Shown here: one piece after another, positions 6,635-31,719 of the stretch | How positions within the stretch are numbered: the stretch's first letter is position 1 | Layout of the letters: each line of letters opens with the position of its first letter | Assembly (NCBI GenBank): GCA_022788185.1 | Contig: JALEVV010000017.1 | Location: 1-64,000, forward strand | Source: Spirochaetales bacterium | GTDB lineage: Bacteria; Spirochaetota; Spirochaetia; Sphaerochaetales; Sphaerochaetaceae | Length of the DNA: 64,000 nucleotides | Direction: 5' to 3' | The notes under the pieces: model-generated | Told to the model about the DNA's origin: nothing | Database searches by the model: none | Seen by the model: only the letters and a program-made list of their open reading frames with translations | Program-made: the position numbers and the translations under genes

Positions 6635-6653
6635 AACGGAATAGTGCAAAAAA

Positions 6654-6686: not shown

Positions 6687-6855
6687 CTGCTTTAAAATTT
6701 ATTCAGGATTTAAAGTGTCCATTCAGGAATACGGACACATCCATATTCAGCTGGCAGAGCCGAAATCATTCATTCTGAAGTCCATGTTCATCATGGATTC
6801 ATGGATAATGCACCTCGGTACATGAGTGAACCGGGAAAAAGGGAGGAATTTTCTA

Positions 6856-14251: not shown

Positions 14252-14254
14252 TTT

Positions 14255-15661
14255 TTAACCCTCGAAATAGTGCTGTGCGTTGTTGAAGCAGATGTTCTCA
14301 ACAACCTTTCCGAGCATCTCCATGTCGTTGGGTACTTCGCCTTCCTCTGCCCATGTACCGAGGATGTTACAGAGTATTCTTCTGAAATACTCGTGTCTGG
14401 AGTAGGAGAGGAATGAGCGGGAGTCTGTGAGCATGCCGATGAAGCGGGGGAGCATTCCGAGGTTGCCGAGAACCTTCATCTGCTCTTCCATACCATCCTT
14501 GTGATCGCAGAACCACCATGCGGAGCCGAGCTGGATCTTGCCGGGGATTCCGCTGCCCTGATAGCAGCCCATGAGGGTGCCGAGGGAGTAGTAATCCTTG
14601 GGGTTGAGGCTGTAGAAGATCGTCTTGGGAACTTCGTCGGTCTCAGAAAGGACTGAGAGGAATGCGGATACGGACTCTGCAAGTTCTTTGTCGTGGGATG
14701 CATCGAAACCTGTATCGGGTCCGAGCAGCCTGAACATGGTCTTGTTGTTGTCCCTGATGGAAGCGAAGTGGAGCTGCATTGCAACGTTCTTCTTATTGTA
14801 AGCCTTTGCAAGGGCAAGGAGCACGTAGGTCATGTATGCGTCGACTTCGCGTTCGGTAAGCTCCGCACCTGCCATCTTCTTTGCGTAGATCGCATTGACC
14901 TCGTCGGCGCTGACGAATGTGTGTGGGCACTGAACGAGGGCATGGTCACTTGCCTTACAGCCCATCTCGCAGAAGAAGTCAAGTCTCTTAAGGAGGGCTT
15001 CGACGACTGCATCGGCACTGTCAAGCTTCATGCCGCTGACTTCAGCAAGCTTTGCGATGTAATCAGCGAAATCGTTCTTCTCGATGTGGAGTGCCTTGTC
15101 GGGGCGGTATGAGGGAATGACCTTTGCGGGGCATGCGGTTTCATCCCTGATGATCTTATGCTGTGCCAGGTCATCTGCGGGATCATCGGTGGTACCTACC
15201 GCATAGACATTGAACTTCTTCATGATGCCGAATACGGAAAGATCGGGATCGGTGGCGAACTTCTCGTTTGCCTCGTCATAGATCTTTTTTGCATTCTTCT
15301 TGCAGAGTACGTCGTAGATACCGAAATATCTCTGAAGCTCGAGGTGAGTCCAGTGATAGAGCGGGTTACCGAGGAGGTTTTCCATTGTGTCTGCCCAGGC
15401 AACGAACTTCTCATAGGGATCTGCATCCTTTCCGGTGATGATGGATTCGGGAACACCGTTGGTCCTCATCTGTCTCCACTTGTAGTGGTCACCGCCGAGC
15501 CATGCATCGGTGATTGTGGTGAAGCGCTTGTTCTCTGCAATCTGAGAAGGGATCAGGTGGCAGTGATAGTCGAAGATGGGCATCTTCGCAGCGTGATCGT
15601 GGAACAGCTCCTGAGCTGTCTTTGTCTGTAACAGGAAATTCTCATCCATGAACTTTTTCAT
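14255..15661 (-). CDS. uxaC: Glucuronate isomerase
   Basis: MKKFMDENFLLQTKTAQELFHDHAAKMPIFDYHCHL... Confidence 0.95.
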   Translation of the reverse strand: MKKFMDENFLLQTKTAQELFHDHAAKMPIFDYHCHLIPSQIAENKRFTTITDAWLGGDHYKWRQMRTNGVPESIITGKDADPYEKFVAWADTMENLLGNPLYHWTHLELQRYFGIYDVLCKKNAKKIYDEANEKFATDPDLSVFGIMKKFNVYAVGTTDDPADDLAQHKIIRDETACPAKVIPSYRPDKALHIEKNDFADYIAKLAEVSGMKLDSADAVVEALLKRLDFFCEMGCKASDHALVQCPHTFVSADEVNAIYAKKMAGAELTEREVDAYMTYVLLALAKAYNKKNVAMQLHFASIRDNNKTMFRLLGPDTGFDASHDKELAESVSAFLSVLSETDEVPKTIFYSLNPKDYYSLGTLMGCYQGSGIPGKIQLGSAWWFCDHKDGMEEQMKVLGNLGMLPRFIGMLTDSRSFLSYSRHEYFRRILCNILGTWAEEGEVPNDMEMLGKVVENICFNNAQHYFEG

Positions 15662-17172
15662 AGTATTACACCATCCTTGAATACTGAGATCTCGGAGTAG
15701 CCGTTGATCTCGTTCTTTGTATGCTCCTCACCGGAAGCGACCTTGACCAGGAACTGGATAAAGGCGCTGGTGAGCTCCTGAGGATCCTCCGTGAGGGCGC
15801 GTCCCGCATTGAAATCAATCCAGTTGGCCTTTCTCTTTGCAAGATCACTGTTGGTTGCGACCTTGACGGTGGGAACCGGAGAACCGAGGGGAGTACCCCT
15901 TCCCGTGGTGAAGAGGATCATGTGTGCGCCCGCAGCGGACTGTGCCGTTGTGGAAACGATGTCGTTACCGGGACCAGAGAGCAGGTTGAGACCTGTCTTC
16001 GTGACTCTGTCTGCATATTTCACGACAGCATTCACGGGTGCCCTTCCTCCCTTCTGGACACAGCCGAGGCTCTTGTCCTCAAGGGTGGAGATACCGCCTG
16101 CCTTGTTTCCGGGTGAGGGGTTTTCATAGACGACCTGACCATGGCTGGTGAAGTAGTCCTTGAAGTTGTTGATGAGTGCAACCACTTCCTCATAGACTTT
16201 CCTGGAGACTGCCCTGTTCATGAGCATCTGCTCGGCACCGAACATCTCGGGAACTTCGGTGAGGATTGCGGTTCCGCCCATTGCCGTGAGCTCGTCACAG
16301 AATCTTCCGACCAGCGGGTTTGCCGTGATACCGGAGAATCCGTCGGAGCCGCCGCACTTAAAGCCGACCTTGAGGCGGGACATAGGTACGGGCACTCTCT
16401 TATCAGCCTTCATGGCCTCTGCGATTTCGGTAAGCAGTGCCTTTGCAGCCGTAAGCTCATCCTCCGCATCCTGACAGACGAGGAACTTTACCCTTTCCTC
16501 ATCGATGGGCCCGAGGAGTTCCCTGAACGATGCGGGAGTGTTGTTCTCACAGCCGAGGGAGATTACGAGCACGCCGCCTGCATTGGGGTGCTTGACGAGA
16601 TCGGCCAGGATCTTTCTTGTGTTGTCGTGGTCATCGCCCATCTGGGAACAGCCATAGGGATGGGTCCAGACATGCACGCCGTCGGCAACTGAGAGATTCT
16701 CATTTGCCCAGGCCTCAAGCTTCTGTCCGATTCTGTTGACACATCCGACAGTGGGAACGATCCAGAGGGCATTCCTGATGCCGATGTCCCCGTTCTTCCT
16801 CTCATATGCCATAATGGTCGGGACTTTGCCTTCCCACTTTCTGGCTCTTTCGGCAGCCTCTTCGATGAACTTCTTTGCGTTTTCCTCATCGTAAGAGTAG
16901 GAAGCCGTCTCTGAAAGGAGGGTGTGGATGTTGAAGGCATGAACGTGGCTTCCTGCCTTGATGTCTTCCTTTGCGGCACCGATCGGGTAACCGTACTTGA
17001 TTACCTTCTCCTCTTTGGCAATATCCCTGAGGGCCATCTTGTGGCCCGCAGGTACGTCCGTAAGGAGTGTGTATGTGGTTCCAGCCACAGTCACGACGTC
17101 ACCCTTGAAGAGGGGATTGATCGCAACGGCGACATTGTCCAGTTCGTTGATTCTGAGCACTGATTCCATCAA
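15658..17172 (-). CDS. uxaA: Altronate dehydratase
   Basis: N-terminal SAF domain; PTVGCVN, YGCSQMGDDH, GCENN, KCGGSDGFSGITANP, FTTGRGTPLGSPVPTVKVATN. Confidence 0.95.
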   Translation of the reverse strand: MMESVLRINELDNVAVAINPLFKGDVVTVAGTTYTLLTDVPAGHKMALRDIAKEEKVIKYGYPIGAAKEDIKAGSHVHAFNIHTLLSETASYSYDEENAKKFIEEAAERARKWEGKVPTIMAYERKNGDIGIRNALWIVPTVGCVNRIGQKLEAWANENLSVADGVHVWTHPYGCSQMGDDHDNTRKILADLVKHPNAGGVLVISLGCENNTPASFRELLGPIDEERVKFLVCQDAEDELTAAKALLTEIAEAMKADKRVPVPMSRLKVGFKCGGSDGFSGITANPLVGRFCDELTAMGGTAILTEVPEMFGAEQMLMNRAVSRKVYEEVVALINNFKDYFTSHGQVVYENPSPGNKAGGISTLEDKSLGCVQKGGRAPVNAVVKYADRVTKTGLNLLSGPGNDIVSTTAQSAAGAHMILFTTGRGTPLGSPVPTVKVATNSDLAKRKANWIDFNAGRALTEDPQELTSAFIQFLVKVASGEEHTKNEINGYSEISVFKDGVIL

Positions 17173-18647
17173 AGGCTCCTGATTGCGGCTACCATGCCGT
17201 CATTGAAGATCTTTGTAAGGTTCTCGGCAACTGCATCCTCGAGTCCCTCGACCTTTGTGAGGTCCTGACCCCACCAGGATTCCTGAGAGAGGACAGCCTT
17301 TGCGATGGCCTTGCCCTTGCAGCCGTTGCACTTGTACTCAGCGCCGTAGAGCTCTGCGAACTTTGCAAGATATTCGGGGTTATCGTTGATGAGGTATGTC
17401 TCACCGTTTCTTGTACCCTTGAGTGCTGCACCCTCGAACTCGGTTCCGTTGTAGAAGCTGATGAGTGCGGAGAGGGAGAAGACAAGGTACTTGGGAAGCT
17501 TGCCGAACTTGCTGACGTAACCGAGGAGTGAGGGAAGATCCCTTGTCTTGAACTTGGATACGCTGTTGAGGGAGATGGACATCAGCAGGTGGATGATGTA
17601 CGGATTGGCGAATCTCTCGAGAACGTCTGCGGCATACTGCTCGAGCTGAGCCTTGTCACCGTCCATTGAAGGAATGATTTCCTCGAAGAGGCCGTTCTTC
17701 ATGAACGGATAGATGAGATCGCTCTTGATACACTCCTCAACGGTGTTGAGACCTGCCTGGTATGCTGCCAGTGTCATGAGGGTGTGAGTTCCGTTGAGAA
17801 TCCTGACCTTTCTTGTTCTGTAGAAGGACATGTCGTCGGTCCAGATGACGTTCACTCCGGCCTTTGCGGTGGGAAGCTCGTCGTCATGGAACTTTCCGTG
17901 ACACTCGATGACCCAGAGAAGGAAGATCTCGGCTGCATCGATGATGTTGTCCTGATAGCCGAGGCGGTTCCATAGTTCCTCTGCCTCTGCCCTGGGATAA
18001 CCCGGAACGATTCTGTCAACAAGGCTGTTGCAGAAGTCACATGCTTCGTTGAGCCATGTCACGAAGCCTTCCTCAAGGCCCCATTCCTCAGCGTATCTGA
18101 GAACGATCTTCTTGAGGTTGTCGCCGTTCTTTTCAATGAGTTCGCAGGGAATTGCGATGATACCCTTGCTCCTGTCGCCGCCGAATGTCTTATATCTTCT
18201 GTAAAGGAAGGCGGTGACCTTTCCGGGGAAGCTTACCTGAGGTCTGTCCTCAAGCCTGTCACCCTCGTGGTATGCGATACCGGCCTCTGTGGTGTTGGAG
18301 ATGAAGAACCTGAGGTCGGGGTTGTCTGCCTGTGCGATGAATGCATCGTATTCCGCATAGGGATTGATACAGCCTGCAACGGAAGTGATCTGTCTGAACT
18401 CTTCCACGGGCTTGCCGTTCTGAACGCCTCTGAGGACTGTCGTATAAAGTCCGTTCTGAGCGTTGATCATGTCGCCGAGACCTCTGTCGAGGGGCTGTAC
18501 GAGCATTACGTTGCCGTTGAAGTCACCCTTCTCGTTGAGCTGGTCGATAATCCAGTCAACAAATGCGCGAAGGAAGTTGCCTTCACCGAACTGAAGGACC
18601 TTAATAGGTCTTTCCACTGTCTTTACCACGTCTTTGATATTATTCAT
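17169..18647 (-). CDS. uxaB: Tagaturonate reductase (mannitol dehydrogenase family)
   Basis: VLQFGEGNFLRAFVDWIID, SNTTEAGIAY, RKVRILNGTHT. Confidence 0.93.
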   Translation of the reverse strand: MNNIKDVVKTVERPIKVLQFGEGNFLRAFVDWIIDQLNEKGDFNGNVMLVQPLDRGLGDMINAQNGLYTTVLRGVQNGKPVEEFRQITSVAGCINPYAEYDAFIAQADNPDLRFFISNTTEAGIAYHEGDRLEDRPQVSFPGKVTAFLYRRYKTFGGDRSKGIIAIPCELIEKNGDNLKKIVLRYAEEWGLEEGFVTWLNEACDFCNSLVDRIVPGYPRAEAEELWNRLGYQDNIIDAAEIFLLWVIECHGKFHDDELPTAKAGVNVIWTDDMSFYRTRKVRILNGTHTLMTLAAYQAGLNTVEECIKSDLIYPFMKNGLFEEIIPSMDGDKAQLEQYAADVLERFANPYIIHLLMSISLNSVSKFKTRDLPSLLGYVSKFGKLPKYLVFSLSALISFYNGTEFEGAALKGTRNGETYLINDNPEYLAKFAELYGAEYKCNGCKGKAIAKAVLSQESWWGQDLTKVEGLEDAVAENLTKIFNDGMVAAIRSL

Positions 18648-18741
18648 CGTTTCCTCCTACGAAACTCTTGTGATCCATAAAACCATAGGATGCCTATCCC
18701 CCAAACCTCCGAAAAGGGAGTTCCTCTGATTGGCACCAAAA

Positions 18742-18756
18742 TGAAACATGATTCCA
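18742..18756. promoter_or_regulatory. KdgR/IclR-like operator upstream of the uxaB-uxaA-uxaC-iclR operon
   Basis: TGAAACATGATTCCA; its reverse complement TGGAATCATGTTTCA is 13/15 identical to the site at 10422-10436. Confidence 0.5.
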
Positions 18757-18809
18757 CTTTACAATCGATGATGTCTGCTGTCAAGAAAAACCACCATCAT
18801 GGTGCATGT

Positions 18810-18827
18810 CTTAATTGTACAATTAAG
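18810..18827. promoter_or_regulatory. Perfect 18-bp palindrome upstream of the chimeric regulator gene
   Basis: CTTAATTGTACAATTAAG. Confidence 0.5.
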
Positions 18828-18889
18828 TGGCTTGTAAAAAAACGATATTTTTTATTGTGGAACGGTGAAATCGGCGATATTCTGAGGAT

Positions 18890-21800
18890 ATGGATAAAAG
18901 GATTGGTTTGATTCTGGCTACAATCCACGAGGGTGCATCCATCAGACTTATGAGGAGTGCGCTCAATTCAGTGGATATCATGAGTGACTCGGTCGTGATT
19001 CTTCCCGGCGGAAGGCTGAATTTCAGGGGGCAGGATGAATACCTCAGAAACAGCATTTATCAGCTGGCCTCCCGTGAAAATTTCGACGGCATCATCTCCT
19101 GGTCAAGTTCGCTTACGGGCGAGATGAACACGGAGGAAGTATGTTCCCTGATGAGGAGCATCAACGTTCCGTTCGTATCAATAGGACTGCCTGTAGAGGG
19201 CTCCCCTTCGGTTACCTTCAATGCCTATGAAGGCATGTACAAGGAAGTCGAGCACTTCATAATCAAGCACGGAATAAGACGCATAGCCTTTCTGAGGGGG
19301 CCCAGCAGCCATGCCAGTGCCGAATCCCGCTTCTCGGCCTATGAGGACTGCCTGAAGCAGTACGGAATACCATATTCGGATGACCTGGTCTCGACGCCCA
19401 GGCCCTGGAATCAGGGACGGGATGCCCTGAGGGAAATCATATGTGACCGCGGTCTCGTGCCGGGAATAGACTTTGACGCCCTGATCTGTGCCTCGGACCT
19501 CATGCTGAGCGGGGCCCTGAACTATCTCGGGGAAATCAACGTGGAGGTTCCTCAGACACTTAAGGTCGCCGGATTCAATGACAGCGACAACAACAAGATC
19601 ATGAAGGTGGCTCCCACCACCGTAAGGATGCCCGTGGTATCGATGATCCATGTGGCCGCGGAACTCGTCCAGCAGCTGCTCAATGACCCAAACACGACGG
19701 TTGAGGACGTGATCCTGCCCGCTGAGCTGGTTATCAGGCAATCATGCGGCTGCCGCCACAGCTTCGGCTCCGATGAGCCTGTTGGCAAGGAGCTGTCGAA
19801 CAGGGAAAACTTCATATCCTGGATCATCAGTCTCACTCAGGGACAGATCAGCTACCAGGAGGTCAGGGCCTTCATAGATTATGCCTTCGAAGTCGAGAAG
19901 TCGATGAAGGACGGCGATCTCTCCCGGTTCAGGGACAGGTTCATCTTCTTTGTCCGCCGCTTCCTCCAGAACGGAGGTGAGCTCTATGACCTTCTGGATG
20001 TGTACAAGTGCTTCCTTTCCACATTCGGGTTCCCTGAAAAGTTCCTCAGGTTCTGTGATTCCGAGCTCATACCTTCCATGATCTACACCTATTCCAGAGT
20101 CTCGGCCGAGGAGAAGTATCTGCAGATGCAGAAGAATTTCAGGGTCAATGCCCTGAAGAACAGGCTGCTTTCGATCAGGTCGACCGATGACCTGGGAAAT
20201 GTCCTCAGGGAAACCCTGCCTCAGCTGGGAATAAAACAGGCATACCTGGTCCTTTCCTCGGGAGAGGAGGGAATGAACCGTCTCGAGACGGGCTTCACAA
20301 GGAAAGGCGAGATAACCGTTGCGGAGAACTTCAGTTCCTCACTCCTGCTTCCGGAACATCTGAAAAAGGAAACGGTCAGAGGCGCTTACATCGTCCTGCC
20401 GCTTACGTGCGACAGCGAGTATCTGGGATACTGTCTCTGTGAGATAACCGAACAGAGGGATGAACAGCTGCTGGAGGATCTGAGAGCGACCCTGTCCTCA
20501 ACACTCAAGGGAATAAGTCTTCTCGATGCCGCGAACAGGGCAAAAGATGTCGCAGAGAAGGCGGAAAGAGCCTCTTCAGACTTCTTTGACAATATTTCAG
20601 AAGGTCTTAAGGAACCCCTTTCGGAGATGAAGAAGACCATAATGGAAGCGGAAATTCCCCAGAAGAAGGAGCTTCTGAATCACCTTCTGAAGGCTGAACA
20701 CCTTCTGGATCTCGTATACACCGAGAAAGGACAGATGGAGCTTCACAGGAAGCTCCTGGCTCCCACTCCCTTCTTCAGGGAGCTGACCGGCAGGTTTGAC
20801 TGCGAGGCATCCATACCCGATGAGCTTCCTGCCATTTATGGGGACGTGGAAAGAATAACGCAGGCCTCCGAGATAATCTTCCATCTTGCCGGAAGTGGAG
20901 GCGGAAAGATCCAGTGCGACGTGAGCGTGAAGCCAGCAGGGCTGACTGTACTGGTCAGGTCGGACTCGTGGAATCCTTACCAGGACAGGGGAGATACCTC
21001 CCTTGCGCTCTCGGAGAAGATCGCGCTGATGCACGGAGGCACCTTCCATTTCAAGGATCACGGCATCCAGGTCTGCCTGCCCTGGCCGTCCCTGACGGGC
21101 ATGGTCACGCAGAGCGGGGCCATCGGATACACTCTCTATATAAAGAGGGACGAATCAAGCACCGTTCCCGATGTGGCGCATACGCTTCCCCAGGTCCTGT
21201 TCGTTACGGAAAACGAGCTGGCTGAGGATTTCGAGATTCCCGAGAACGTCACCAGGATAGCCTGGGGATACAGGGACAGGAGGGAGCACGAAAGCGTCGT
21301 GCTGAACCTGCTTAAGAACCACCAGCGCAGCAAAAGCCTGCCGTTCCTCTGCTTCGGAATGGAGGCCTCCCCGCTTGATCTCTGGTCGGCACTCCGTACC
21401 GGCAGCGGTGAGGGCATTGACGGGACCATCCTGGTCGTCGGCCAGCTTCCCCAGGGGCTCGCCCGCCTTTCGGCCTTCGGTACGTTCGTGAATGTGGACG
21501 GGCCTGTTTCCCTGGCCGGTTTCGGAAAGACCCCGGCCATGATAATCCTCAATTCGGTATCACCGGATGAGGTTGCGGCGGTAAGGAAGGAAAAGGACTT
21601 CGCCAAGGTTCCCATACTGCTCGTGAAGGATCATTTTGCCGATTCCGAGGTTGAGAAGATCGCCCAGCTTCCGAATCTGCTGATATGCAACACATGTCTC
21701 TGTGATTCCGATGAATTCGTTTCCAGACTCATAGGAATATTCGGAGGCAATGCCGTCCTGCCGCCCCTTACCGGAGCCCTGGTCAAGAGGGCGATCGGTT

Positions 21801-22087
21801 TCCTGAACAGGAGGGCCACAAGCCAGATATCCAGATGGCAGCTGGCAGAGTATGTAAACATAAGCGAGGATTATCTTACCAGAATCTTCAAGAAGGACAT
21901 GGGGCTTTCCCCCTGGGACTATCTCAACAGATACAGGGTTCAGCTCGCCACCGAGCTGCTGACCCAGACCGGATCGACGATCAACGACGTTGCCGCCGCA
22001 ACCGGTTTCCAGGATCAGGCATATTTCTGCCGCGTCTTCAAGAAGATCAAGGGTGTCTCACCGGGACAGATGCGAAACAGGATGTGA
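18890..22087 (+). CDS. Chimeric regulator: LacI-type sugar-binding domain, degenerate histidine-kinase-like core, AraC HTH
   Basis: N-terminal LacI/PBP1 sensor (IAFLRGPSSHASAESRFSAYEDCL...), FFDNISEGLKEPLSEM and LALSEKIALMHGGTFHF resembling HisKA/HATPase, C-terminal AraC HTH (VAAATGFQDQAYFCRVFKKIKGVSPGQMR). Confidence 0.85.
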   Translation: MDKRIGLILATIHEGASIRLMRSALNSVDIMSDSVVILPGGRLNFRGQDEYLRNSIYQLASRENFDGIISWSSSLTGEMNTEEVCSLMRSINVPFVSIGLPVEGSPSVTFNAYEGMYKEVEHFIIKHGIRRIAFLRGPSSHASAESRFSAYEDCLKQYGIPYSDDLVSTPRPWNQGRDALREIICDRGLVPGIDFDALICASDLMLSGALNYLGEINVEVPQTLKVAGFNDSDNNKIMKVAPTTVRMPVVSMIHVAAELVQQLLNDPNTTVEDVILPAELVIRQSCGCRHSFGSDEPVGKELSNRENFISWIISLTQGQISYQEVRAFIDYAFEVEKSMKDGDLSRFRDRFIFFVRRFLQNGGELYDLLDVYKCFLSTFGFPEKFLRFCDSELIPSMIYTYSRVSAEEKYLQMQKNFRVNALKNRLLSIRSTDDLGNVLRETLPQLGIKQAYLVLSSGEEGMNRLETGFTRKGEITVAENFSSSLLLPEHLKKETVRGAYIVLPLTCDSEYLGYCLCEITEQRDEQLLEDLRATLSSTLKGISLLDAANRAKDVAEKAERASSDFFDNISEGLKEPLSEMKKTIMEAEIPQKKELLNHLLKAEHLLDLVYTEKGQMELHRKLLAPTPFFRELTGRFDCEASIPDELPAIYGDVERITQASEIIFHLAGSGGGKIQCDVSVKPAGLTVLVRSDSWNPYQDRGDTSLALSEKIALMHGGTFHFKDHGIQVCLPWPSLTGMVTQSGAIGYTLYIKRDESSTVPDVAHTLPQVLFVTENELAEDFEIPENVTRIAWGYRDRREHESVVLNLLKNHQRSKSLPFLCFGMEASPLDLWSALRTGSGEGIDGTILVVGQLPQGLARLSAFGTFVNVDGPVSLAGFGKTPAMIILNSVSPDEVAAVRKEKDFAKVPILLVKDHFADSEVEKIAQLPNLLICNTCLCDSDEFVSRLIGIFGGNAVLPPLTGALVKRAIGFLNRRATSQISRWQLAEYVNISEDYLTRIFKKDMGLSPWDYLNRYRVQLATELLTQTGSTINDVAAATGFQDQAYFCRVFKKIKGVSPGQMRNRM

Positions 22088-22117
22088 ATTAGGACGAAAA
22101 CGTCCTTAGTCTGAAAT

Positions 22118-22140
22118 GTACAATAACAGGATTGTATAAT
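22118..22140 (+). promoter_or_regulatory. Operator-like inverted repeat overlapping a TATAAT -10 element
   Basis: TGTACAAT-AACAGG-ATTGTATAAT region; shares TTGTACAAT-like half-sites with the palindrome at 18810. Confidence 0.4.
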
Positions 22141-22405: not shown

Positions 22406-22984
22406 GTGGGATCCGGAGTCAAAAAGTATCAGGGCATAGATCTGATGATTTGGGTAATCCTACTTTTCGTCTTTGAATTCCTGACAGTAAAGGCAGGTTC
22501 CGTGTGGTTCTCATCACAGCCCTGGTCACTGTCAATAGTTCCCGCTCTCACCGCAATCGTATATATGAGATGGGGTGCTTACGGCATCCTGTACGCATTT
22601 CTCGGAGGCATTGCCGTTTCATTTGCCAGCGATGCAACCTCAATGCAGTATGTCATATATTCATTCGGAAATCTTCTTTCGGCACTGCTGCTTCTGATGT
22701 TCAGGACAGTGGGCAAGGCTGGGGTCAGGGATAAGACATCCCTGTCCGTCATCTTCGCGCTGCTTACGGCGCTCCTGATGCAGACGGGCAGAGGTATCGT
22801 ATCAGTGATCCTGGGGTATGATGCCGGTGGAATCATCGGTTTCATTTCCACGGACATTCTGTCCACCGCATTCTCGGTACTGATCGTCCTGATCACGAGA
22901 AGGCTGGATGGGGTGTTCGAAGATCAGATCTCGTATTTGATACGGGTGAACAATGAAGAAAAGGAAAAAGGGGGTAGAGAATGA
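22406..22984 (+). CDS. Integral membrane protein, ECF S-component-like
   Basis: 192 aa, about 5-6 hydrophobic segments; GTG start preceded by GGAGG; first gene of the ABC operon and overlaps the next start. Confidence 0.55.
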   Translation: MGSGVKKYQGIDLMIWVILLFVFEFLTVKAGSVWFSSQPWSLSIVPALTAIVYMRWGAYGILYAFLGGIAVSFASDATSMQYVIYSFGNLLSALLLLMFRTVGKAGVRDKTSLSVIFALLTALLMQTGRGIVSVILGYDAGGIIGFISTDILSTAFSVLIVLITRRLDGVFEDQISYLIRVNNEEKEKGGRE

Positions 22985-24033
22985 AGTTAGATGCATCTGA
23001 TTACCTAATTTATGATGCCGAAACCAGGACCTACAGAGAGAATCCCGAACAGAAAGTAAGGGACGATGTCGAGAAGCACTACTGGCTCCATGTCGGACGC
23101 ACGATCGTCAAGGACTGGCGCCTGTATATCATGCTCGTTCCGATGCTTGTCGTGTTCCTCCTGTGGAGGTATATGCCGATGTATGAACTCCTCGGCTGTT
23201 TCAAGGTATATGACCAGGTACTTCCCGTGTCTGAGCAGCTGTTCTCAGGATTTTCATATTTCAAGCGCCTTATTGCCGGCGGCGACGCACTTTCAGCTGA
23301 GTTCTGGAGAGCACTGAGGAACACATTCCTCCTTTCCTTCTACGGTCTCTGCTTCGGTTTCCCCGTTCCGATCATCCTGGCCCTCTTCTTCAATGAAGTA
23401 AGGTCAAATATCGCAAGAAGCGTTTTCCAGGTACTCACATACCTGCCGAAGTTCATGTCAACGGTTGTCATGACCTCTCTCGTGACCATGCTTGTAAAAC
23501 AGGGCTCACTGACATCCAGCTACGGTATCGTTTCACAGCTCCTTGAAAAACTCGGACTGATCTCCGCAGAGCTCGCCAACGGCGGTCTTCTCAACGATCC
23601 CAGATTCTTCCGCGGCATCTATCAGCTGTCAGGTATCTGGGAAGAGGCTGGTTACGGTTCAATCGTTTACTTCGCCGCTATCATCGCCATCAGTCCTACC
23701 AGCTACGAAGCTGCCCAGATCGACGGTGCAGGCAAGATGTCCCAGATGAAGTACGTCGTTCTTCCATGTATCCTTTCAACGATCGTAATCATGCTCATCA
23801 CCAAGATCGGTTCACTGCTGTCCATCGGTTATGAGAAGGTCCTCCTCCTTTATAACCCCAACACATACGTGACTGCGGATGTAGTATCCACATTTGCTCA
23901 GAGATATGGTCTTGAGGGTGCCGCAAAGGGTATTGCGACAGCCGCTGAAATGCTGAACAACGTTATCGGCATGCTGCTCGTCATCGGTGCCAATACAATC
24001 GCCAGAAAAGCTTCTGACGTATCACTTTATTGA
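22981..24033 (+). CDS. Carbohydrate ABC transporter permease (LplB-like)
   Basis: RYMPMYELLGCFKVYD, EAAQIDGAGKMSQMKYVVLPCI EAA loop. Confidence 0.88.
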   Translation: MKLDASDYLIYDAETRTYRENPEQKVRDDVEKHYWLHVGRTIVKDWRLYIMLVPMLVVFLLWRYMPMYELLGCFKVYDQVLPVSEQLFSGFSYFKRLIAGGDALSAEFWRALRNTFLLSFYGLCFGFPVPIILALFFNEVRSNIARSVFQVLTYLPKFMSTVVMTSLVTMLVKQGSLTSSYGIVSQLLEKLGLISAELANGGLLNDPRFFRGIYQLSGIWEEAGYGSIVYFAAIIAISPTSYEAAQIDGAGKMSQMKYVVLPCILSTIVIMLITKIGSLLSIGYEKVLLLYNPNTYVTADVVSTFAQRYGLEGAAKGIATAAEMLNNVIGMLLVIGANTIARKASDVSLY

Positions 24034-24050
24034 TCGGGAGACGGTAAGAA

Positions 24051-24941
24051 ATGAAAAGAAAACTCGAAACAACCGAACTAATCTTCAAGATCGTCAGCTA
24101 TACACTCCTGACCATGTTCGCAATCGGATGTCTCTATCCGTTCCTCTATGCCATCTCCTCTTCACTGAGCGGCAGAAAGGCCGTGGAGTATGCACAGGTC
24201 GTCCTTTTCCCGAAGGATGTGCAGTTTGAGGCTTTCGGACAGATGTTCACCAGCAACATGTTCTGGAACGCATATTCGAACACTCTGTTCATCACCTTCT
24301 ACGGAACGATCTGGGCTCTCGGATATTCAATCCTCGGTGCCTACGCGCTTTCCAAGAAGAGACTTCTCTTCAGGAAGACCTTCAACTTCTTCCTCGTCTT
24401 CACGATGTGGTTCAGCGCCGGTATCGTACCGCAGTACCTCAACTACCTGAATACCAAGGACGTGTTCAACGCCATCGGCATCATGGATGACAAGTGGCTT
24501 GTCATCATCGCCATGGGTATGGCCGCAATGAACATCATCCTGTTAAGAAACGCTTTTGAGGGTGTTCCCTCCGAAATCGAGGAAGCTGCCATCGTCGATG
24601 GAGCTACCGAGTTCCAGGTTCTCTCAAAGGTTTACATCCCGATGAGCAAATCAACGATCGCGACCGTCGCACTCTTCTTCGGTATCTCAAGATGGAATGG
24701 TTACTTCTGGGCACGCCAGATGATTTCCAACTCCAACGAGCATCCTCTGATGGTATTCATCAGGCTTACTCTTGAGGAGTACACCGATCCTGAGGTAATG
24801 AGCGGCTGGAACAAGGCATATGCATCAGACTCCGTCATCTATGCCCTCATCGTCTGCTCAATCGTTCCTATTCTCGTAATCTATCCGTTCATACAGAAGT
24901 ACTTCGCTAAGGGTACAAACGTTGGCGGTGTCAAAGAATGA
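24051..24941 (+). CDS. Carbohydrate ABC transporter permease (YtcP/LplC-like)
   Basis: EIEEAAIVDGATEFQVLSKVYIPMSKSTIATVALFFGISRWNGYF. Confidence 0.9.
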   Translation: MKRKLETTELIFKIVSYTLLTMFAIGCLYPFLYAISSSLSGRKAVEYAQVVLFPKDVQFEAFGQMFTSNMFWNAYSNTLFITFYGTIWALGYSILGAYALSKKRLLFRKTFNFFLVFTMWFSAGIVPQYLNYLNTKDVFNAIGIMDDKWLVIIAMGMAAMNIILLRNAFEGVPSEIEEAAIVDGATEFQVLSKVYIPMSKSTIATVALFFGISRWNGYFWARQMISNSNEHPLMVFIRLTLEEYTDPEVMSGWNKAYASDSVIYALIVCSIVPILVIYPFIQKYFAKGTNVGGVKE

Positions 24942-24964
24942 TCATAAATTGGAGGCAATTTAAC

Positions 24965-27157
24965 ATGAAGAAAAACATTGTCGCAGTTCTTCTGATCGCA
25001 CTCATGCTCTGCACACTCATTGCATGCGGCGGAAAGAAGACAATTGCAGTGCAGCAGACAGCCAGCGCTCCCGCAGCACAGACAGCTGCCCCTGCAGCCA
25101 CTGCTCCCGCAGCAACAGCTGCTGCCGCTCCTGTCGTAAAGGAAGAAGTCAAGAAGCTTGAGTATGCTGAAGGCACAACACTCAGAATGGCCACAGGATA
25201 CAACAGCAAGAAGACAGGCCTTTCCTTCGATGCCGATACTGCCAAGGATGGTATCGAACTCGCAGGCAAGACATACCGCGCAGGCGATCTCAAGCCGACC
25301 TGGGTTGAGGTTCAGAATGTGCTCGGTATCAAGTTTGAGGATAAGTACCAGGGTAACTCAGCTACCAACGAGCTCAAGTACTGGGCTGAGAAGCTCGGTG
25401 ACGTCGACATGGTTTCCGGTAACGCCACATCTCTCGTAGAGTATGGTGACAAGGGTGCCTTCGTTGATATCGCCCAGTACCTCGACATGATGCCCAACTT
25501 CAAGGCTTACCTCGATGCAAATCCGATCGTAAGGCTTTCAATCACAGGTAACACATCAACAGGTGCAATCTACTTCTCACCGTACTTCGACGGTGTAAAC
25601 GATATCGAGAGAATGCCCCTCATGAGAACCGACTGGGTCGTCAAGCTCCTCGACGGCGAAGGTGAATTCAAGGCTGAGAAGTCCGGCAAGCTCGCTGCCG
25701 CTGCATACACACCCTACATGCCCACAAGCGGTAAGGTAACAATCGAGACAGTCAACGCTGAGGGAACAGGCACTTTCGATCTCACAAAGGACTACGACAA
25801 GGCTGGCAACATCATCGCAACAATGAACGCTGCCCTTGCAAAGGGTGAGGTTACCGGTGTTCAGGCAGTCAACATGCTCAGAAGCTACATCGACGCTGCA
25901 TACAACGGTTACTACGGCACAAGCAGATCCAACCTCTTCATCGGTCAGGATGCAGCATGGGATGCCGACGAACTCGTTGCTCTCCTCCGCTGTGTGGTTG
26001 CAAACGCATACACACTCAACGGTACAGACACTGTTCAGGGCCTCTTCGCACGTGAGGATGCCAACAACCAGAGAAGAGTTGACCTCTTCAGGTTCGCAGG
26101 CACACTCTTCGGTGTCCGCGGTCTTGAATCCAGACAGGATTACCTCTATCTCGATTCCGACGGCAAGCTCAAGGATGCACGCCAGATGGAAGCTACCTAC
26201 AAGGCAATGGAGAAGATGAACCAGATTGCTACAGAAGGGCTCATCTCCAAGTCCTTCATGGATTCTTCCGCTGAGACATCCGCAAAAATGCTCGAGAACG
26301 ACCTCGGCTTCATGAGCTATGACTACAACCAGACTCAGACCATCATGAACGAGACAAAGCTCCAGGATGGCGAGAAGTACATGGCTGTCATGGTTCCTGT
26401 CGCTCATTGGTTCGACGGTACTGATCCCAATGGTGTTTACATGAGATTCACCGAATCCTGGAGATCCGTTAAGACTGACGGCTGGGCAATCAGCAAGGCA
26501 GGTGTCGGTGACGATACCAACAAGCTCAATGCAGCCCTCGCCCTCATCGACTATGCATACAGCCCCGAAGGCATGATCCTCATGAGCTACGGTCCTTCCG
26601 AGTTCATCAAGCAGAATGCTGACGGCAGCTATGTGACATTCTCCTTCAACGGTCAGCAGATGCCCGTTATCGCAGATGTCACTGAGGAACTCCTCTGGAA
26701 GCTCACAAGCGGTAACTACACCAACTTCGCAAGAATGTACCTTGGATCAACTCTCTCCTTCGCAAAGAGCCAGGCATTCGAGTATCAGTGCACACACGCT
26801 GTCGGTAAGGAAGGTGCAGGTAAGATCTCCACAGCCATCGGCCTCGGAACCCTCAAGCACCCCGAACTCGCAGTCACATCCAACGCATGGTATTCATCAG
26901 TACCCACAACTCTGCCTACAACCTCTGTCGAGACAGATACCGTCAACCAGTATACTGAGCTCCAGAACCAGTTCAACCAGCAGAAGGGTAAGATCAACAT
27001 CCTCGTTGATCAGATCGTCAAGGGTTATACTCTCGAAGGCTGCTCAGACGCTGCTTCAACAGTTGCCAAGGTATCCGGAGAGTGGGGCGGTAACCAGTAT
27101 CTCTTCATCAAGCAGAGTGCTTGGACCCGTCTTCTCAAGTTCTACAATCAGCTCTAG
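24965..27157 (+). CDS. Large (about 730 aa) ABC transporter substrate-binding lipoprotein
   Basis: MKKNIVAVLLIALMLCTLIACGG lipobox, Ala/Pro linker, long extracellular domain, directly after the permeases. Confidence 0.82.
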   Translation: MKKNIVAVLLIALMLCTLIACGGKKTIAVQQTASAPAAQTAAPAATAPAATAAAAPVVKEEVKKLEYAEGTTLRMATGYNSKKTGLSFDADTAKDGIELAGKTYRAGDLKPTWVEVQNVLGIKFEDKYQGNSATNELKYWAEKLGDVDMVSGNATSLVEYGDKGAFVDIAQYLDMMPNFKAYLDANPIVRLSITGNTSTGAIYFSPYFDGVNDIERMPLMRTDWVVKLLDGEGEFKAEKSGKLAAAAYTPYMPTSGKVTIETVNAEGTGTFDLTKDYDKAGNIIATMNAALAKGEVTGVQAVNMLRSYIDAAYNGYYGTSRSNLFIGQDAAWDADELVALLRCVVANAYTLNGTDTVQGLFAREDANNQRRVDLFRFAGTLFGVRGLESRQDYLYLDSDGKLKDARQMEATYKAMEKMNQIATEGLISKSFMDSSAETSAKMLENDLGFMSYDYNQTQTIMNETKLQDGEKYMAVMVPVAHWFDGTDPNGVYMRFTESWRSVKTDGWAISKAGVGDDTNKLNAALALIDYAYSPEGMILMSYGPSEFIKQNADGSYVTFSFNGQQMPVIADVTEELLWKLTSGNYTNFARMYLGSTLSFAKSQAFEYQCTHAVGKEGAGKISTAIGLGTLKHPELAVTSNAWYSSVPTTLPTTSVETDTVNQYTELQNQFNQQKGKINILVDQIVKGYTLEGCSDAASTVAKVSGEWGGNQYLFIKQSAWTRLLKFYNQL

Positions 27158-27188
27158 TCTTCAGATTCGGGCTTAATTGATCAATCAT

Positions 27189-27219
27189 ACTGTGCGGGAG
27201 GACCCGCTTCCCGCACAGT
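27189..27219 (+). promoter_or_regulatory. Intercistronic stem-loop (11-bp perfect stem)
   Basis: ACTGTGCGGGA-GGACCCGCT-TCCCGCACAGT with no U-run. Confidence 0.6.
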
Positions 27220-27245
27220 CCTAATAAAACAAAAAGGAGGGGGTT

Positions 27246-27833
27246 ATGTACAAAAAGCAGATGGGTTTCCAGAAGTTGATCTGCATTCTTGCTCTGGTAG
27301 CCGGTTTTGTCGTTTTCCTTTATTCTCTCGGGATCATGACAGATCTGTATGACTGTCTTTACTCTACAATGATGGATCCTACAGATCCTACGGTTACTTT
27401 CGTACCGGGCTCCATCGTATATTACAACATGCAGGGCTTCAACAGAACGTTCCTGTCAGCGTCTATCGTCATGCTGCTGCTGGCATGCCTTCTCTTCGTC
27501 ACGCAGACGAGCAACCGCAGAAGGTACTATGTGGGCAATTATGTCGCTATCGGTCTCTTCTCGGTATTCACACTGGCTATGGTGATCTGGGGACATTTCC
27601 AGATTCAGATCTACAGGGCCCAGTGGCTTCAGGTAGATTTCGAGGCACTTGCCTCATTCTCCCAGATGTTCAAAACGAAATATACAGAATCCACATTCTG
27701 GTTTGATATTCACTATGCCGTTTTCGGCATCTGTCTTGCTGAAGTCGCCCTTCTCATCGGCAACGCCGTATGGAAGATCAGGCTCATGAAGGCAGAGGCA
27801 GAACTGCTTGCGAAAGGAGGAAAGGCCGTATGA
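27246..27833 (+). CDS. Uncharacterised four-TM protein of the ABC operon
   Basis: Start after AAAAAGGAGGGGGTT; hydrophobic segments LALVAGFVVFLYSLGI, FLSASIVMLLLACLLFV, GLFSVFTLAMVIW, GICLAEVALLIGN. Confidence 0.75.
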   Translation: MYKKQMGFQKLICILALVAGFVVFLYSLGIMTDLYDCLYSTMMDPTDPTVTFVPGSIVYYNMQGFNRTFLSASIVMLLLACLLFVTQTSNRRRYYVGNYVAIGLFSVFTLAMVIWGHFQIQIYRAQWLQVDFEALASFSQMFKTKYTESTFWFDIHYAVFGICLAEVALLIGNAVWKIRLMKAEAELLAKGGKAV

Positions 27834-28327
27834 CAGATCAGGACAGACAGATAAAGACTGACCGCATGCGCTATATCAAGAACAAGTTCTCATCGAACCT
27901 TGCCCTTGTCGCGATCATCTTCGACGTTTTCTTCTTCGTCAGCATCTACAAATCTGACGTAAGCACATATTATTACACACTCCTCATCGGAGTCTCGATT
28001 GTTTACAACCTTGCATTCATGCTGGCTGCATTCCTCTCATCCGAAGGAGTCAAGTCCTATGGTGAGGGATACTGCTACCTGCTGATCGTGCTCGGTATTA
28101 TCCAGTTCGTACGTATCTTCATCATCCCATGGCGTGCAAGCCATGCGGAAGTGACAATCGCGAACGAGGCCGTTGTCGTAATGGGATCCGCCCAGTTCCT
28201 GCGCTGCACCCTGTTCCTGGTAATCTCAGGAATCTGCTGTATCGTGGCTGCTGTCGTCGGTATCCAGAGAAGCCGCACGCTCAAGGCATATGTAGCGACA
28301 CTCGGTGAAGAGCACAGGAGGGACTAA
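27830..28327 (+). CDS. Uncharacterised four-TM protein of the ABC operon
   Basis: MTDQDRQIKTDRMRYIKNKFSSNLALVAIIF...; RBS GGAGG; overlaps neighbours by 1-4 nt. Confidence 0.75.
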   Translation: MTDQDRQIKTDRMRYIKNKFSSNLALVAIIFDVFFFVSIYKSDVSTYYYTLLIGVSIVYNLAFMLAAFLSSEGVKSYGEGYCYLLIVLGIIQFVRIFIIPWRASHAEVTIANEAVVVMGSAQFLRCTLFLVISGICCIVAAVVGIQRSRTLKAYVATLGEEHRRD

Positions 28328-29397
28328 TGGCCACACTCAGCTTACAGCATATAGATAAGATATATGATAACAATGTCCAGGCAGTCTTTGACTTCAACCT
28401 GGAGGTCAAGGACGGTGAGCTCATCGTTCTGGTAGGACCTTCCGGCTGCGGAAAGTCAACCACACTCAGAATGGTTGCCGGTCTTGAGGATATTTCAAAC
28501 GGCCATCTCCTGCTTGACGGTAAGGATATTACCCAGGCTCCCGCAAAGGACAGGGATATGGCAATGGTTTTCCAGAACTATGCCCTCTACGGCCACATGA
28601 CCGTTTATGAGAACATGGCTTTCTCCCTCACCATGAGAAAGGAAGATCCGAACGTCATCCACAAGAAGGTTCTTGCCGCTGCAGAGATTCTCAATCTCAC
28701 GACTCAGCTCAACAAGAAGCCGAGCCAGCTTTCCGGCGGTCAGAGACAGCGTGTCGCAATGGGACGCTCCATCGTAAGAACCCCGAAGGTGTTCCTTTTC
28801 GATGAACCTCTTTCAAACCTCGATGCCAAGCTCAGGGGCTCGACAAGAAGGGAGATCCTCCTCCTGCACAAGAGACTTAAGGCCACCATGCTTTACGTAA
28901 CCCACGACCAGACCGAGGCCCTGACTCTCGCAGACAGGATAGTATGTATGTCCATGGGTCATGTCCAGCAGGTCGGAACCCCCCTTGAGCTCTATGACAC
29001 ACCCGCAAACCTCTTCGTCGCAGGCTTTATCGGACTTCCTCCGATGAACTTCTTCGACGTGACGGTCAAGGGCGGTGCCCTGGTAGGAAAGGGTATGACC
29101 GTAAAGCTTTCTGAGGATCAGAAGAACACCCTCAGAAGCTATGAAGGCAAGACAATCGTCCTCGGTGTCAGACCTGAGAACATTGTCCTCGGTGATGACG
29201 TGACGATAAAGGTGACTTCCAATGAGAACCTCGGTATGAATACCCTCGTCCACGGCAACATCAAGGGCGGTGACAAGATCACGGGTAAGCTCCGCGGCTG
29301 GTGCGACTACAAGAACGGTGATGAGGTTAAGGTCTCCTTCGACAGAATGCACTTCTTCGACAAGGAAACGACCAACGCCATCAGAGGGGAGGTTTGA
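28327..29397 (+). CDS. Carbohydrate ABC transporter ATPase (UgpC/MsmK-type), copy 1
   Basis: GPSGCGKSTTLRMVAGLEDI, LSGGQRQRVAMGRSIVR, FDEPLSNLDAKLR, TOBE-like C-terminus. Confidence 0.95.
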   Translation: MATLSLQHIDKIYDNNVQAVFDFNLEVKDGELIVLVGPSGCGKSTTLRMVAGLEDISNGHLLLDGKDITQAPAKDRDMAMVFQNYALYGHMTVYENMAFSLTMRKEDPNVIHKKVLAAAEILNLTTQLNKKPSQLSGGQRQRVAMGRSIVRTPKVFLFDEPLSNLDAKLRGSTRREILLLHKRLKATMLYVTHDQTEALTLADRIVCMSMGHVQQVGTPLELYDTPANLFVAGFIGLPPMNFFDVTVKGGALVGKGMTVKLSEDQKNTLRSYEGKTIVLGVRPENIVLGDDVTIKVTSNENLGMNTLVHGNIKGGDKITGKLRGWCDYKNGDEVKVSFDRMHFFDKETTNAIRGEV

Positions 29398-29399
29398 TC

Positions 29400-29954
29400 A
29401 TGGCAGCAAAAAAAGGCTTTAAGGAATGGCTCAGGAAGAAGATCGTCGGCATCAAGCGCAATCCCCAGAGGATCGGTCTCGTCGCCTTTGCCATCACGTT
29501 TCTGTACTACTCCCTGAACCTGACATGCATCAGTAACACGACTGCAAAAATCCAGGGATCCGGAATGGGGCTCTCAGGCTTCGTGACAATGCTCTTCTCG
29601 ATGCTCAGTCTGCTGTGCTACATGAACTCCTTCCCTCGCCGTAAGCCGGTCAACAAGCCGATGCTCGCCGTCTTCATCGTGATGATTGCGGCCATCCTCT
29701 TCTGTGACTGGAGATACAGGGAGCTGATTTACTATGCAGTTGCTCTTTCACCGACACCGATTGCCGTGACGGAATCAACCGCATACATCCTGGAAGCATA
29801 CAACATGCTCTTCACACACATGGTCCTCATCGTGGTCTCTCTTGTACTGACGGCTCTCATGCCTGTCTTCAAGATCCTCCTGAAGAAGATCAATACACGT
29901 GTTGATGTCGACGGCTACGACAAGATGGAGTCGATCGATATTTCCGGGGAGTAA
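29400..29954 (+). CDS. Uncharacterised four-TM protein of the ABC operon
   Basis: RIGLVAFAITFLYYSLNLTCISNTTAKIQG...; layout similar to 27246-27833. Confidence 0.75.
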   Translation: MAAKKGFKEWLRKKIVGIKRNPQRIGLVAFAITFLYYSLNLTCISNTTAKIQGSGMGLSGFVTMLFSMLSLLCYMNSFPRRKPVNKPMLAVFIVMIAAILFCDWRYRELIYYAVALSPTPIAVTESTAYILEAYNMLFTHMVLIVVSLVLTALMPVFKILLKKINTRVDVDGYDKMESIDISGE

Positions 29955-29962
29955 TCCAGCAG

Positions 29963-30574
29963 ATGGCCAGGTATAAGGGAGACGATCCGTACAGACTCAA
30001 GAAGGAAGCCGTTGAGGATCTCGTTGGGGCAAATGTAGACAACACCCCGAAGTATACCGAGGAGGAACTGCGTAAATACAGGACCAAATCGAAGATACAC
30101 ATAAGCGGGACCTCAAAGGCGATACTCATCAAGCTGTGGTTCAGCGGCGCGGTGTGTTACTTCTTCATCTGGGGACTGGGGCTTTACATCGGCTCCACCC
30201 TCGATCTCTTCGTGGTAACTGCCATCGGAATGGGCTTCGTGAAGGATATTCTCGAGAATAACTGCCTCAGGTGGGTCGCTGACCCTCCCGGATCCAATGA
30301 CAAATGGATGATGTTCCCGAAGAAGCAGTACCGGAGCCTGATATTCAACTGTATATATGTGTTCTTCGTGATGTTCTGTGTCATGATGACATATGAAGGC
30401 GTGAACGGCGTCATGAACGCCCTCACAGGCCAGACAGAAGGTGTTCTGTTTGGCATCGAACCTGTGACATTCGGGTGCATCTACCTCGCGTTCGATCTCT
30501 TCTTCCTCTGGATGAAGCATTTTGCGGGAAAGATAATATCCGATGCCAGGAGCAAAGTAGAAAAAGGAGACTGA
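29963..30574 (+). CDS. Uncharacterised membrane protein of the ABC operon
   Basis: GTSKAILIKLWFSGAVCYFFIWGLGLYIG...; several TM segments, tightly linked to the downstream ATPase. Confidence 0.75.
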   Translation: MARYKGDDPYRLKKEAVEDLVGANVDNTPKYTEEELRKYRTKSKIHISGTSKAILIKLWFSGAVCYFFIWGLGLYIGSTLDLFVVTAIGMGFVKDILENNCLRWVADPPGSNDKWMMFPKKQYRSLIFNCIYVFFVMFCVMMTYEGVNGVMNALTGQTEGVLFGIEPVTFGCIYLAFDLFFLWMKHFAGKIISDARSKVEKGD

Positions 30575-30575
30575 G

Positions 30576-31655
30576 ATGCCATACCTTGTTCTTAAAGACA
30601 TAAATAAAATCTACCCTAACGGTTTCCATGCCGTCCACGATTTCAACCTTGAGATCGAGAAGGGGGAGTTCATCGTTTTCGTAGGTTCATCCGGCTGCGG
30701 TAAGTCCACAACGCTCAGGATGATTGCAGGACTGGAGGACATCAGTAAGGGTGATTTCCTCATCGACGGACAGAGAGCCAATGAGAAGGGACCAAGGGAC
30801 CGCGGAGTCGCCATGGTATTCCAGAGCTATGCTCTCTATCCTCAGATGACGGTATATGACAACCTGGCCTTCGGTCTCACTCTTGAAGGCATCGATGAGG
30901 ACATCATCGAGGAGAAAGTAAAGAACGTCGCAAAGATCCTCGGACTCACCGACTATCTTGATAGACTTCCCAAGGCTCTCTCCGGTGGTCAGAGACAGCG
31001 TGTTGCGGTAGGCCGCGCAATCATCAGAAAGGTAGGAATCTTCCTCATGGACGAGCCTCTTTCCAACCTCGATGCAAAGCAGAGGGTAACGATGAGAAGC
31101 GAGATCACCGAAATCCACAGGAAGACCGGTGCAACCACAATCTACGTAACCCACGACCAGACCGAGGCCATGACCATGGCTGACAGGATCGTAGTCATGA
31201 AGGAAGGCTACATCCAGCAGGTCGGTACTCCCTATGAGCTGTACTTCAACCCCGTCAACGTCTTCGTTGCAGGCTTCATCGGCGAACCTCCCATGAACTT
31301 CGTCAGATCAACGCTGAAGAACGGTAAGATAATGGTCGGTAAGAACGAGATCGATCTTACAAAGAAGATGAAGGCTGCCGACATAAAGAAGTACGAAGGT
31401 AAGGAACTGGTCTTCGGCTTCCGTCCTGAGGCCATCTCTCTCGGAGCGGGTGACGGCTACGTCATCAAGGCTGAAGTGGAACTCACCGAGCTGCTCGGAG
31501 ACAACACCAACGTCTATGTCGACATCCAGGGTGATAAGTCCATCCTCAAGGTTAATCCCCACGACACACCTGAGATGGATTCCGAGATCGTCTTCACGAT
31601 CCCGCTGGAGAGTGTCTATATCTTCGATAACGAGACTGAAAAGGTTATTAAATAA
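30576..31655 (+). CDS. Carbohydrate ABC transporter ATPase (UgpC/MsmK-type), copy 2
   Basis: GSSGCGKSTTLRMIAGLEDI, LSGGQRQRVAVGRAIIR, MDEPLSNLDAKQR. Confidence 0.95.
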   Translation: MPYLVLKDINKIYPNGFHAVHDFNLEIEKGEFIVFVGSSGCGKSTTLRMIAGLEDISKGDFLIDGQRANEKGPRDRGVAMVFQSYALYPQMTVYDNLAFGLTLEGIDEDIIEEKVKNVAKILGLTDYLDRLPKALSGGQRQRVAVGRAIIRKVGIFLMDEPLSNLDAKQRVTMRSEITEIHRKTGATTIYVTHDQTEAMTMADRIVVMKEGYIQQVGTPYELYFNPVNVFVAGFIGEPPMNFVRSTLKNGKIMVGKNEIDLTKKMKAADIKKYEGKELVFGFRPEAISLGAGDGYVIKAEVELTELLGDNTNVYVDIQGDKSILKVNPHDTPEMDSEIVFTIPLESVYIFDNETEKVIK

Positions 31656-31672
31656 GATTCAGATCATGACGA

Positions 31673-31695
31673 GGGGCCCTTCACGGGTCCCTTTT
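31673..31695 (+). terminator. Rho-independent terminator after ATPase copy 2
   Basis: GGGGCCC-TTCAC-GGGTCCC TTTT. Confidence 0.65.
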
Positions 31696-31719
31696 GTGTA
31701 ATTAAGGAGTGTAAAAGCG

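Follow-up and report, generated by a model that had tools for sequence, protein, structure and literature searches.

The 64,000-nucleotide stretch of Spirochaetales DNA analysed here (referred to as the window; assembly GCA_022788185.1, contig JALEVV010000017.1, positions 1 to 64,000) contains a gene at 18890-22087 whose product joins a LacI-type sensor, a kinase-like middle region and an AraC-type DNA-binding domain. We consider it probable (at roughly 0.72) that this protein is a regulator of pectin/galacturonate use, which descends from a hybrid two-component system of soluble type and has become a one-component switch, with its dead kinase-receiver core acting as a conformational transmitter. 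The observations pointing in this direction, all of them drawn from sequences and models, concern the domain make-up of the protein, a family-wide loss of catalytic residues, purifying selection on the core, the pectin gene context, relatives in which the core is intact, and a motif in the flanking regions that may serve as an operator.

The open reading frame extends from an ATG at 18890 to a stop codon at 22085-22087, and one full-length copy of the regulator is found in its genome. The original prediction for this gene was of a LacI sensor, a histidine-kinase relic and an AraC regulator in one polypeptide, with the phospho-acceptor His replaced by Glu. The sequence confirms the reading frame, the motif (...SSDFFDNISEGLKEPLSEM...) and the GAA codon within it, and the make-up of the polypeptide is borne out by Pfam, a family profile, and AlphaFold2 (AF2) and Foldseek results. 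In the sensor pocket, Asp203, Asn230 and other residues are invariant and Arg147 is conserved in at least 90% of 62 sequences; the ligand is presumably a sugar, in view of the pectin genes nearby. No clear membrane helix was seen in the window protein (maximum 19-residue Kyte-Doolittle mean, 1.58), and due to this the sugar sensor is expected to be cytoplasmic. The AraC domain shows a median identity of 97% in close pairs, and the full-length orthologues (1007-1107 aa) retain both the length and the domain order. This order, viz. sensor-kinase-receiver-AraC in one chain, is that of the hybrid two-component systems (HTCS), and it is seen in the Pfam, profile and model results as well as in the intact orthologues.

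The kinase origin of the middle region is indicated by a profile made from 62 homologues (residues 520-965), which matched histidine kinases of the PDB (6nb0, E 3.3e-10; DivL, 4.2e-9; RetS, 2e-5). Searched singly, 14 of these 62 homologues gave a match to Pfam HisKA (best E 4.6e-6). The AF2 model (predicted local distance difference test score, pLDDT, 89) shows a 60-residue helix with its hairpin partner, corresponding to a dimerisation and histidine phosphotransfer (DHp) domain at residues 525-612, followed by an ATPase-like sandwich at about 620-735, two receiver-like alpha/beta domains and the AraC domain. With the whole model as query, only LacI-type proteins were seen among the Foldseek matches listed, and with residues 520-965 modelled alone the matches listed included the kinases DivL, HK853, ZraS and RetS at E about 1e-7; the top listed PDB matches were histidine kinases, with DivL within the first three. 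The DHp and the catalytic and ATP-binding (CA) domains thus share fold and ancestry with the histidine kinases (HisKA/HATPase_c). A receiver fold is suggested by the alpha/beta pattern, which occurs twice in the AF2 model, by weak profile matches (E 0.09-0.7) and by alignment to the intact receiver of a relative (L141). A degenerate receiver-like part before the AraC helix-turn-helix (HTH) had been predicted earlier; its degeneracy and position are upheld, and it comprises two receiver-like domains.

The most direct evidence is provided by two relatives from one genus (L141 and L142), which carry, in the same order, the sensor, a HisKA domain with SHELRTP, a HATPase_c domain with an N box and DTGSGI, an intact receiver and an AraC domain. 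The matches of both proteins to HisKA, HATPase_c and Response_reg are above the Pfam cut-offs, and homologues of LplB, YtcP, GH105 and GH28 are found 3' of their genes. Because these colinear intact relatives carry the three domains at the same place, the middle region of the window protein can be regarded as kinase-derived. In a tree based on the sensor and AraC columns, from which the kinase columns were left out, the AraC-bearing proteins form one clade (100/99), within which L141, L142 and a kinase-deleted relative, L147, group together (99/98) as the sister of all pseudokinases (87/76); a tree based on the sensor only agrees with this (86). As the intact L141 and L142 branch outside the pseudokinase clade, loss of the catalytic residues is, with moderate support, the likelier derived state. 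The protein on the deepest pseudokinase branch (L146) has Glu at the His position, and its ATPase is still recognised by Pfam (E 2.7e-9), a state which fits a loss of His first.

With the intact L141 as a ruler, the catalytic positions were compared in up to 96 homologues. The phospho-acceptor His is kept in 3/96 and the next Glu in 21/96 of these, the N-box Asn residues in 1/96 and 3/94, and the G1 Asp in 3/96. In receiver B, the acid pair is kept in 1/95 and 4/95, the Asp in 15/96, the Thr in 3/96 and the Lys in 1/96. Residues of the fold are, at the same time, widely kept, viz. Phe (92/96), Leu (92/96), Pro (94/96) and Leu (87/96) in the DHp, the Gly of the G2 helix (92/96) and the receiver Pro (89/96). 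In the window protein itself the N box is gone and the LALSEKIALMHGG helix is kept, as the original prediction had stated, and the G1 box is gone as well; in receiver B, the acid pair is replaced by Gly851/Gln852, the Asp by Asn888, the Thr by Lys913 and the Lys by Thr935. It thus appears to have lost the His, N box and G1 box of an active histidine kinase, as well as the acid pair, Asp, Thr/Ser and Lys of a receiver, and with the catalytic residues gone, phosphotransfer of the HTCS type is predicted to be lost.

The alignment of homologues also bears on the Glu at the acceptor site, for which conservation had been proposed as a check. Glu is found at this site in only 44 of the 96 sequences, the others having Ser (24), Asn (10), Asp (8), His (3), Thr (2) or other residues including Ala, Val and Gly. 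A role of Glu571 as a conserved phosphomimetic was rejected due to this variability; since the site varies over the family, Glu571 is one of many replacements and not a selected mimic. Homologues with an intact His, which had been named as a refutation, do exist (L053, L064, L092, L141 and L142). The first three, from termite guts, lack the N and G1 boxes, and their His should not be taken as a sign of activity, whereas the latter two are remote orthologues that branch outside the pseudokinase clade; the interpretation is therefore left standing.

The term relic, used earlier for the middle region, is apt for its chemistry but not for the region as a whole. Based on 21 close pairs (Nei-Gojobori method, saturated comparisons excluded), the median ratio of nonsynonymous to synonymous substitution rates (dN/dS) is 0.056 for the DHp, 0.10 for the CA domain, 0.11 and 0.10 for the two receivers, 0.07 for the sensor and 0.015 for the AraC domain. 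Judged from these values, the kinase-receiver core is under purifying selection, i.e. it is maintained rather than decaying.

The placement of the gene between the uxa operon and a pectin transporter operon, as originally described, agrees with the gene annotation; a KdgR-like gene (13469-14251) lies beyond the uxa genes, and a GH28 polygalacturonase gene is found at 6826-8187. Of the 48 loci in which the regulator is flanked on either side by 3 kb or more, 41 contain a Uxa or pectin-enzyme homologue and 39 contain LplB/YtcP permeases. As this context is conserved over the loci, the regulator most likely serves pectin/galacturonate use. The proposal that cytoplasmic sugar sensing is coupled to DNA binding without phosphotransfer is likewise supported, in so far as sequence can indicate this, by the soluble nature of the protein, its LacI-type pocket, the lost catalytic residues and the conserved pectin context.

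Both intergenic regions flanking the regulator were searched by expectation maximisation, independently for the Bullifex-like, other non-Treponema and Treponema sets, and all three sets converged on an asymmetric site of 17-18 bp, TTGTAcAA..CcGACaT, with log-likelihoods far above those of shuffled sequences (132.6 vs at most 61.9, 276 vs 73 and 313 vs 69, respectively). A model trained without the Bullifex clade ranked 18832-18849, 18805-18822 and 22106-22123 as 1, 2 and 3 among all positions on both strands of the 64 kb. The predicted site pair at -84 (minus strand) and -59 to -61 (plus strand) is seen again in relatives. Exact matches to the consensus pattern in the 2.27-Mb assembly are limited to the three window sites, and matches with one mismatch are at background level (6 vs 5 for the reversed control).

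In the mechanism that we infer from these results, a pectin-derived (galacturonate-containing) sugar would bind to the LacI-type domain in the cytoplasm, and the resulting change would travel along the long coiled helix into a presumably dimeric DHp core. The DHp, the pseudo-ATPase and the two pseudo-receivers would then act purely as a conformational transmitter, through which the AraC domains could be released or re-oriented, so as to bind the 17-bp sites in both intergenic regions and activate the uxa operon, the transporter operon and the regulator's own gene. In Bacteroides hybrid systems, the unphosphorylated receiver restrains the DNA-binding domain (PMC11253607), and a hold of this kind could here be governed mechanically. 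In this scheme, the ligand and the dimer are putative, as are the allosteric step and the direction of control.

A number of observations weigh against this reading. Pfam and NCBIfam searches with the single window protein found nothing between the sensor and the AraC domain, for Pfam even at E 5. Support for the pseudokinase clade (87/76), on which the direction of change depends, is moderate. The consensus pattern was derived partly from the window's own sites. The motif exceeds 12 bits at about half of the loci (upstream of the regulator at 36 of 71, downstream at 38 of 71; shuffles, 0), and the model was trained on these same loci. A convincing operator is also absent at the intact orthologues, the best score being 9.6 bits at L141 with none at L142. 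Lastly, activation rather than repression is assumed by analogy with the AraC family.

If the middle region were a dispensable ancestral spacer, with the sensor acting on the AraC domain directly or via dimerisation alone, as in XylR, then relatives without it should cause no surprise, and there are three of these (L134, 813-3107, and L138, 863-3145, both about 765 aa; L147, 845-3790, 982 aa), in which the sensor is followed directly by the receiver-like and AraC part. However, pectin genes were not found in the retrieved flanks of L134 and L147, and the short forms may respond to other ligands. The full-length orthologues, moreover, keep the length and order given above, and selection is strong on the DHp and, at about 0.1 for the CA domain and receivers, near that on the sensor, which makes a mere spacer unlikely. 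In another reading, the dead core was repurposed for a second input, and its altered ATPase or receiver pockets bind a ligand or partner, as DivL binds DivK~P, so that two signals are integrated. One of the top fold matches is indeed DivL, a pseudokinase which serves as a sensor (PMC4211667), and several non-catalytic positions have become newly conserved, for example Leu (90/96), Ala (80/96) and Ile (80/96) in what was the G2 helix and Asn (77/96) beside the receiver Lys. These positions, however, may reflect mere packing, DivL retains the ATP-binding boxes which the window protein has lost, and neither a partner nor a ligand is indicated; we regard such a role as quite improbable.

It is very improbable that the protein still exchanges phosphate in trans with some other kinase. 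Cross-phosphorylation of hybrid kinases is possible and the receiver-B Asp persists in 15 of the 96 relatives, but in the window protein the DHp His and all of the receiver-B catalytic residues are missing. The notion that the kinase likeness is a misreading or due to chance, for which the lack of a Pfam match for the single sequence could be cited, is scarcely tenable in view of the profile match (E 3e-10) and the fold match, and it is already refuted by the colinear intact relatives. The reading as a one-component switch with a mechanically acting core is the one that we favour.

Among the known systems, E. coli XylR, a one-component regulator, likewise combines a LacI-type ligand domain with an AraC domain, and its structures (PDB 4fe4 and 4fe7) match the window protein over two stretches; in XylR, however, the two are not separated by a kinase or receiver part. 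Pseudomonas aeruginosa RetS, which works through GacS, resembles the window protein as an atypical hybrid kinase whose kinase region is used in a regulatory, non-canonical way and by profile and fold matches, but it lacks a DNA-binding domain. In the Bacteroides HTCS, sensor, kinase, receiver and AraC domain are also present in one chain and control polysaccharide-use genes (PMC11253607). L141 and L142 can be viewed as soluble versions of this plan, whereas the HTCS are membrane sensors using phosphorylation. The window protein differs from them in its solubility, its LacI-type sensor and the loss of the residues needed for phosphotransfer. Caulobacter DivL is a pseudo-histidine kinase working without kinase activity (PMC4211667), and it shares with the window protein the kinase fold, to which it is a close fold and profile match, and a replaced phospho-acceptor (Tyr in DivL). 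However, DivL, whose targets are other kinases, still has its N, G1, F and G2 boxes, while in the window protein every box is degenerate and a fused AraC domain provides the output. Vibrio cholerae ChiS, a hybrid kinase, binds to DNA directly in its control of genes for sugar use (PMC8092284), but it is membrane-bound, has a different DNA-binding domain, and is described as a hybrid histidine kinase rather than a fully degenerate one.

For the family as a whole, the odds are somewhat better than even that it has passed from a two-component to a one-component mode with the domain order kept, the chemistry being lost early and the core then selected as an allosteric transmitter, with the intact orthologue at a pectin locus representing the state before this change. 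The genomes compared are based on metagenome-assembled genomes. No described spirochaete family of LacI-kinase-AraC proteins was found in the open-access literature, subscription papers being outside its scope. If correct, the proposed conversion would provide a natural before/after pair for a phosphorelay protein losing its chemistry but keeping its job, in a series from intact (L141, L142) through partly decayed (L146) to fully dead (the window protein and its relatives). The share of a kinase core as a mechanical signal transmitter, which is hard to isolate in active kinases, would become testable, and for many gut and rumen spirochaetes the likely regulator of pectin use would be named together with the target genes and the operator. 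It would also warn that proteins annotated as hybrid kinases from domain remnants may signal without phosphate.

Table 1. Positions in the window of the regulator gene, its domains, neighbouring operons and predicted sites
Feature	Position	Strand	Basis or remark
uxaB-uxaA-uxaC (tagaturonate reductase, altronate dehydratase, uronate isomerase)	14255..18647	-	divergent from regulator; probable target operon
KdgR-like box CCAAAATGAAACATGATTCCAC	18736..18757	+	between uxaB and regulator; probable site of a second (IclR-type) regulator
Predicted operator TTGTACAATTAAGACAT	18806..18822	-	uxaB/regulator divergent region; motif search, held-out rank
Predicted operator TTGTAAAAAAACGATAT	18832..18848	+	uxaB/regulator divergent region; motif search, held-out rank
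Whole regulator gene	18890..22087	+	1065 aa; clear membrane segment not seen
LacI/GalR-type periplasmic-binding-protein-like sensor, residues 1-290	18890..19759	+	Pfam Peripla_BP_3 E 1.1e-25; Foldseek CelR, RbsR, AscG
Helical linker region, residues 300-430	19787..20179	+	AF2 model
GAF-like alpha/beta domain, residues 431-524	20180..20461	+	AF2 model; fold name inferred from strand/helix order alone
Degenerate DHp (HisKA-like) helical hairpin, residues 525-615	20462..20734	+	AF2 model, family profile, Foldseek, alignment
Phospho-acceptor position, GAA = Glu571 replacing His	20600..20602	+	sequence, alignment
Degenerate ATPase-like (CA) domain, residues 616-735	20735..21094	+	AF2 model, Foldseek, alignment
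Receiver-like domain A, degenerate, residues 745-845	21122..21424	+	AF2 model; alignment to L141
Receiver-like domain B, degenerate, residues 846-957	21425..21760	+	AF2 model, weak receiver profile matches, alignment
AraC-type DNA-binding domain, residues 959-1065	21764..22084	+	Pfam HTH_18 E 1.1e-23, full profile (two-HTH)
Predicted operator TTGTACATTTCAGACTA	22107..22123	-	regulator/transporter operon intergenic region; motif search, held-out rank
ABC transporter operon ending in GH88/105 gene	22406..32817	+	downstream of regulator; probable target operon

The box at 18736-18757 is probably a KdgR site, based on the E. coli KdgR consensus and the KdgR-like gene in the window. Many related loci have similar boxes in the corresponding position, and an IclR-type KdgR and the LacI-AraC regulator probably share this promoter region. 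Two other motifs were rejected as operators: AAATGAAACAT..TTTC is the KdgR-like box itself, and CAGATTGCATTCAA, found downstream of the regulator at a near-constant place about 230 bp past its stop codon, represents in-frame Q-I-A-F of the next gene. The held-out model also scored highly at 6632-6649, about 180 bp 5' of the GH28 gene, and at 43881-43898, 5' of an open reading frame at 44151 (by eye, RpiB/LacAB-type isomerase-like); these could be extra targets or chance matches. A match with one mismatch, of a kind occurring at background level, is located in L169 at about 3846 (G000:C40:7345-7361), about 135 bp 5' of an operon for a LacI regulator, binding protein and permease.

The transporter operon is unusual in that its 22406-31655 part encodes two permeases, two ATPases and several interleaved small membrane proteins. 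For the 739-aa protein at the position of the binding protein no Pfam or NCBIfam match was found, and a 192-aa small membrane protein gave no family match. In one locus with a distant regulator (L095, about 13860-19015; about 32% identity), the permeases are 84-85% identical to those of the window, whereas at most other loci this identity is just about 30%, which suggests horizontal exchange of the transporter.

The sensor module, consisting of the LacI-type domain, the helical region and the GAF-like domain, recurs in other spirochaetes, where active kinases or diguanylate cyclase/EAL domains form the output, and it has the look of a general, soluble cassette for the sensing of sugars. It is found with HisKA or HisKA_3-like kinases and GGDEF/EAL domains in L129, L130, L131, L132, L133, L135, L140, L148 and L149. 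In another protein (L143, 957-4703), the sensor nests among those of the termite-gut pseudokinase regulators, and HisKA, HATPase_c and the receiver are intact with the AraC domain absent; here, the sensor has apparently recombined onto a different, active hybrid kinase.

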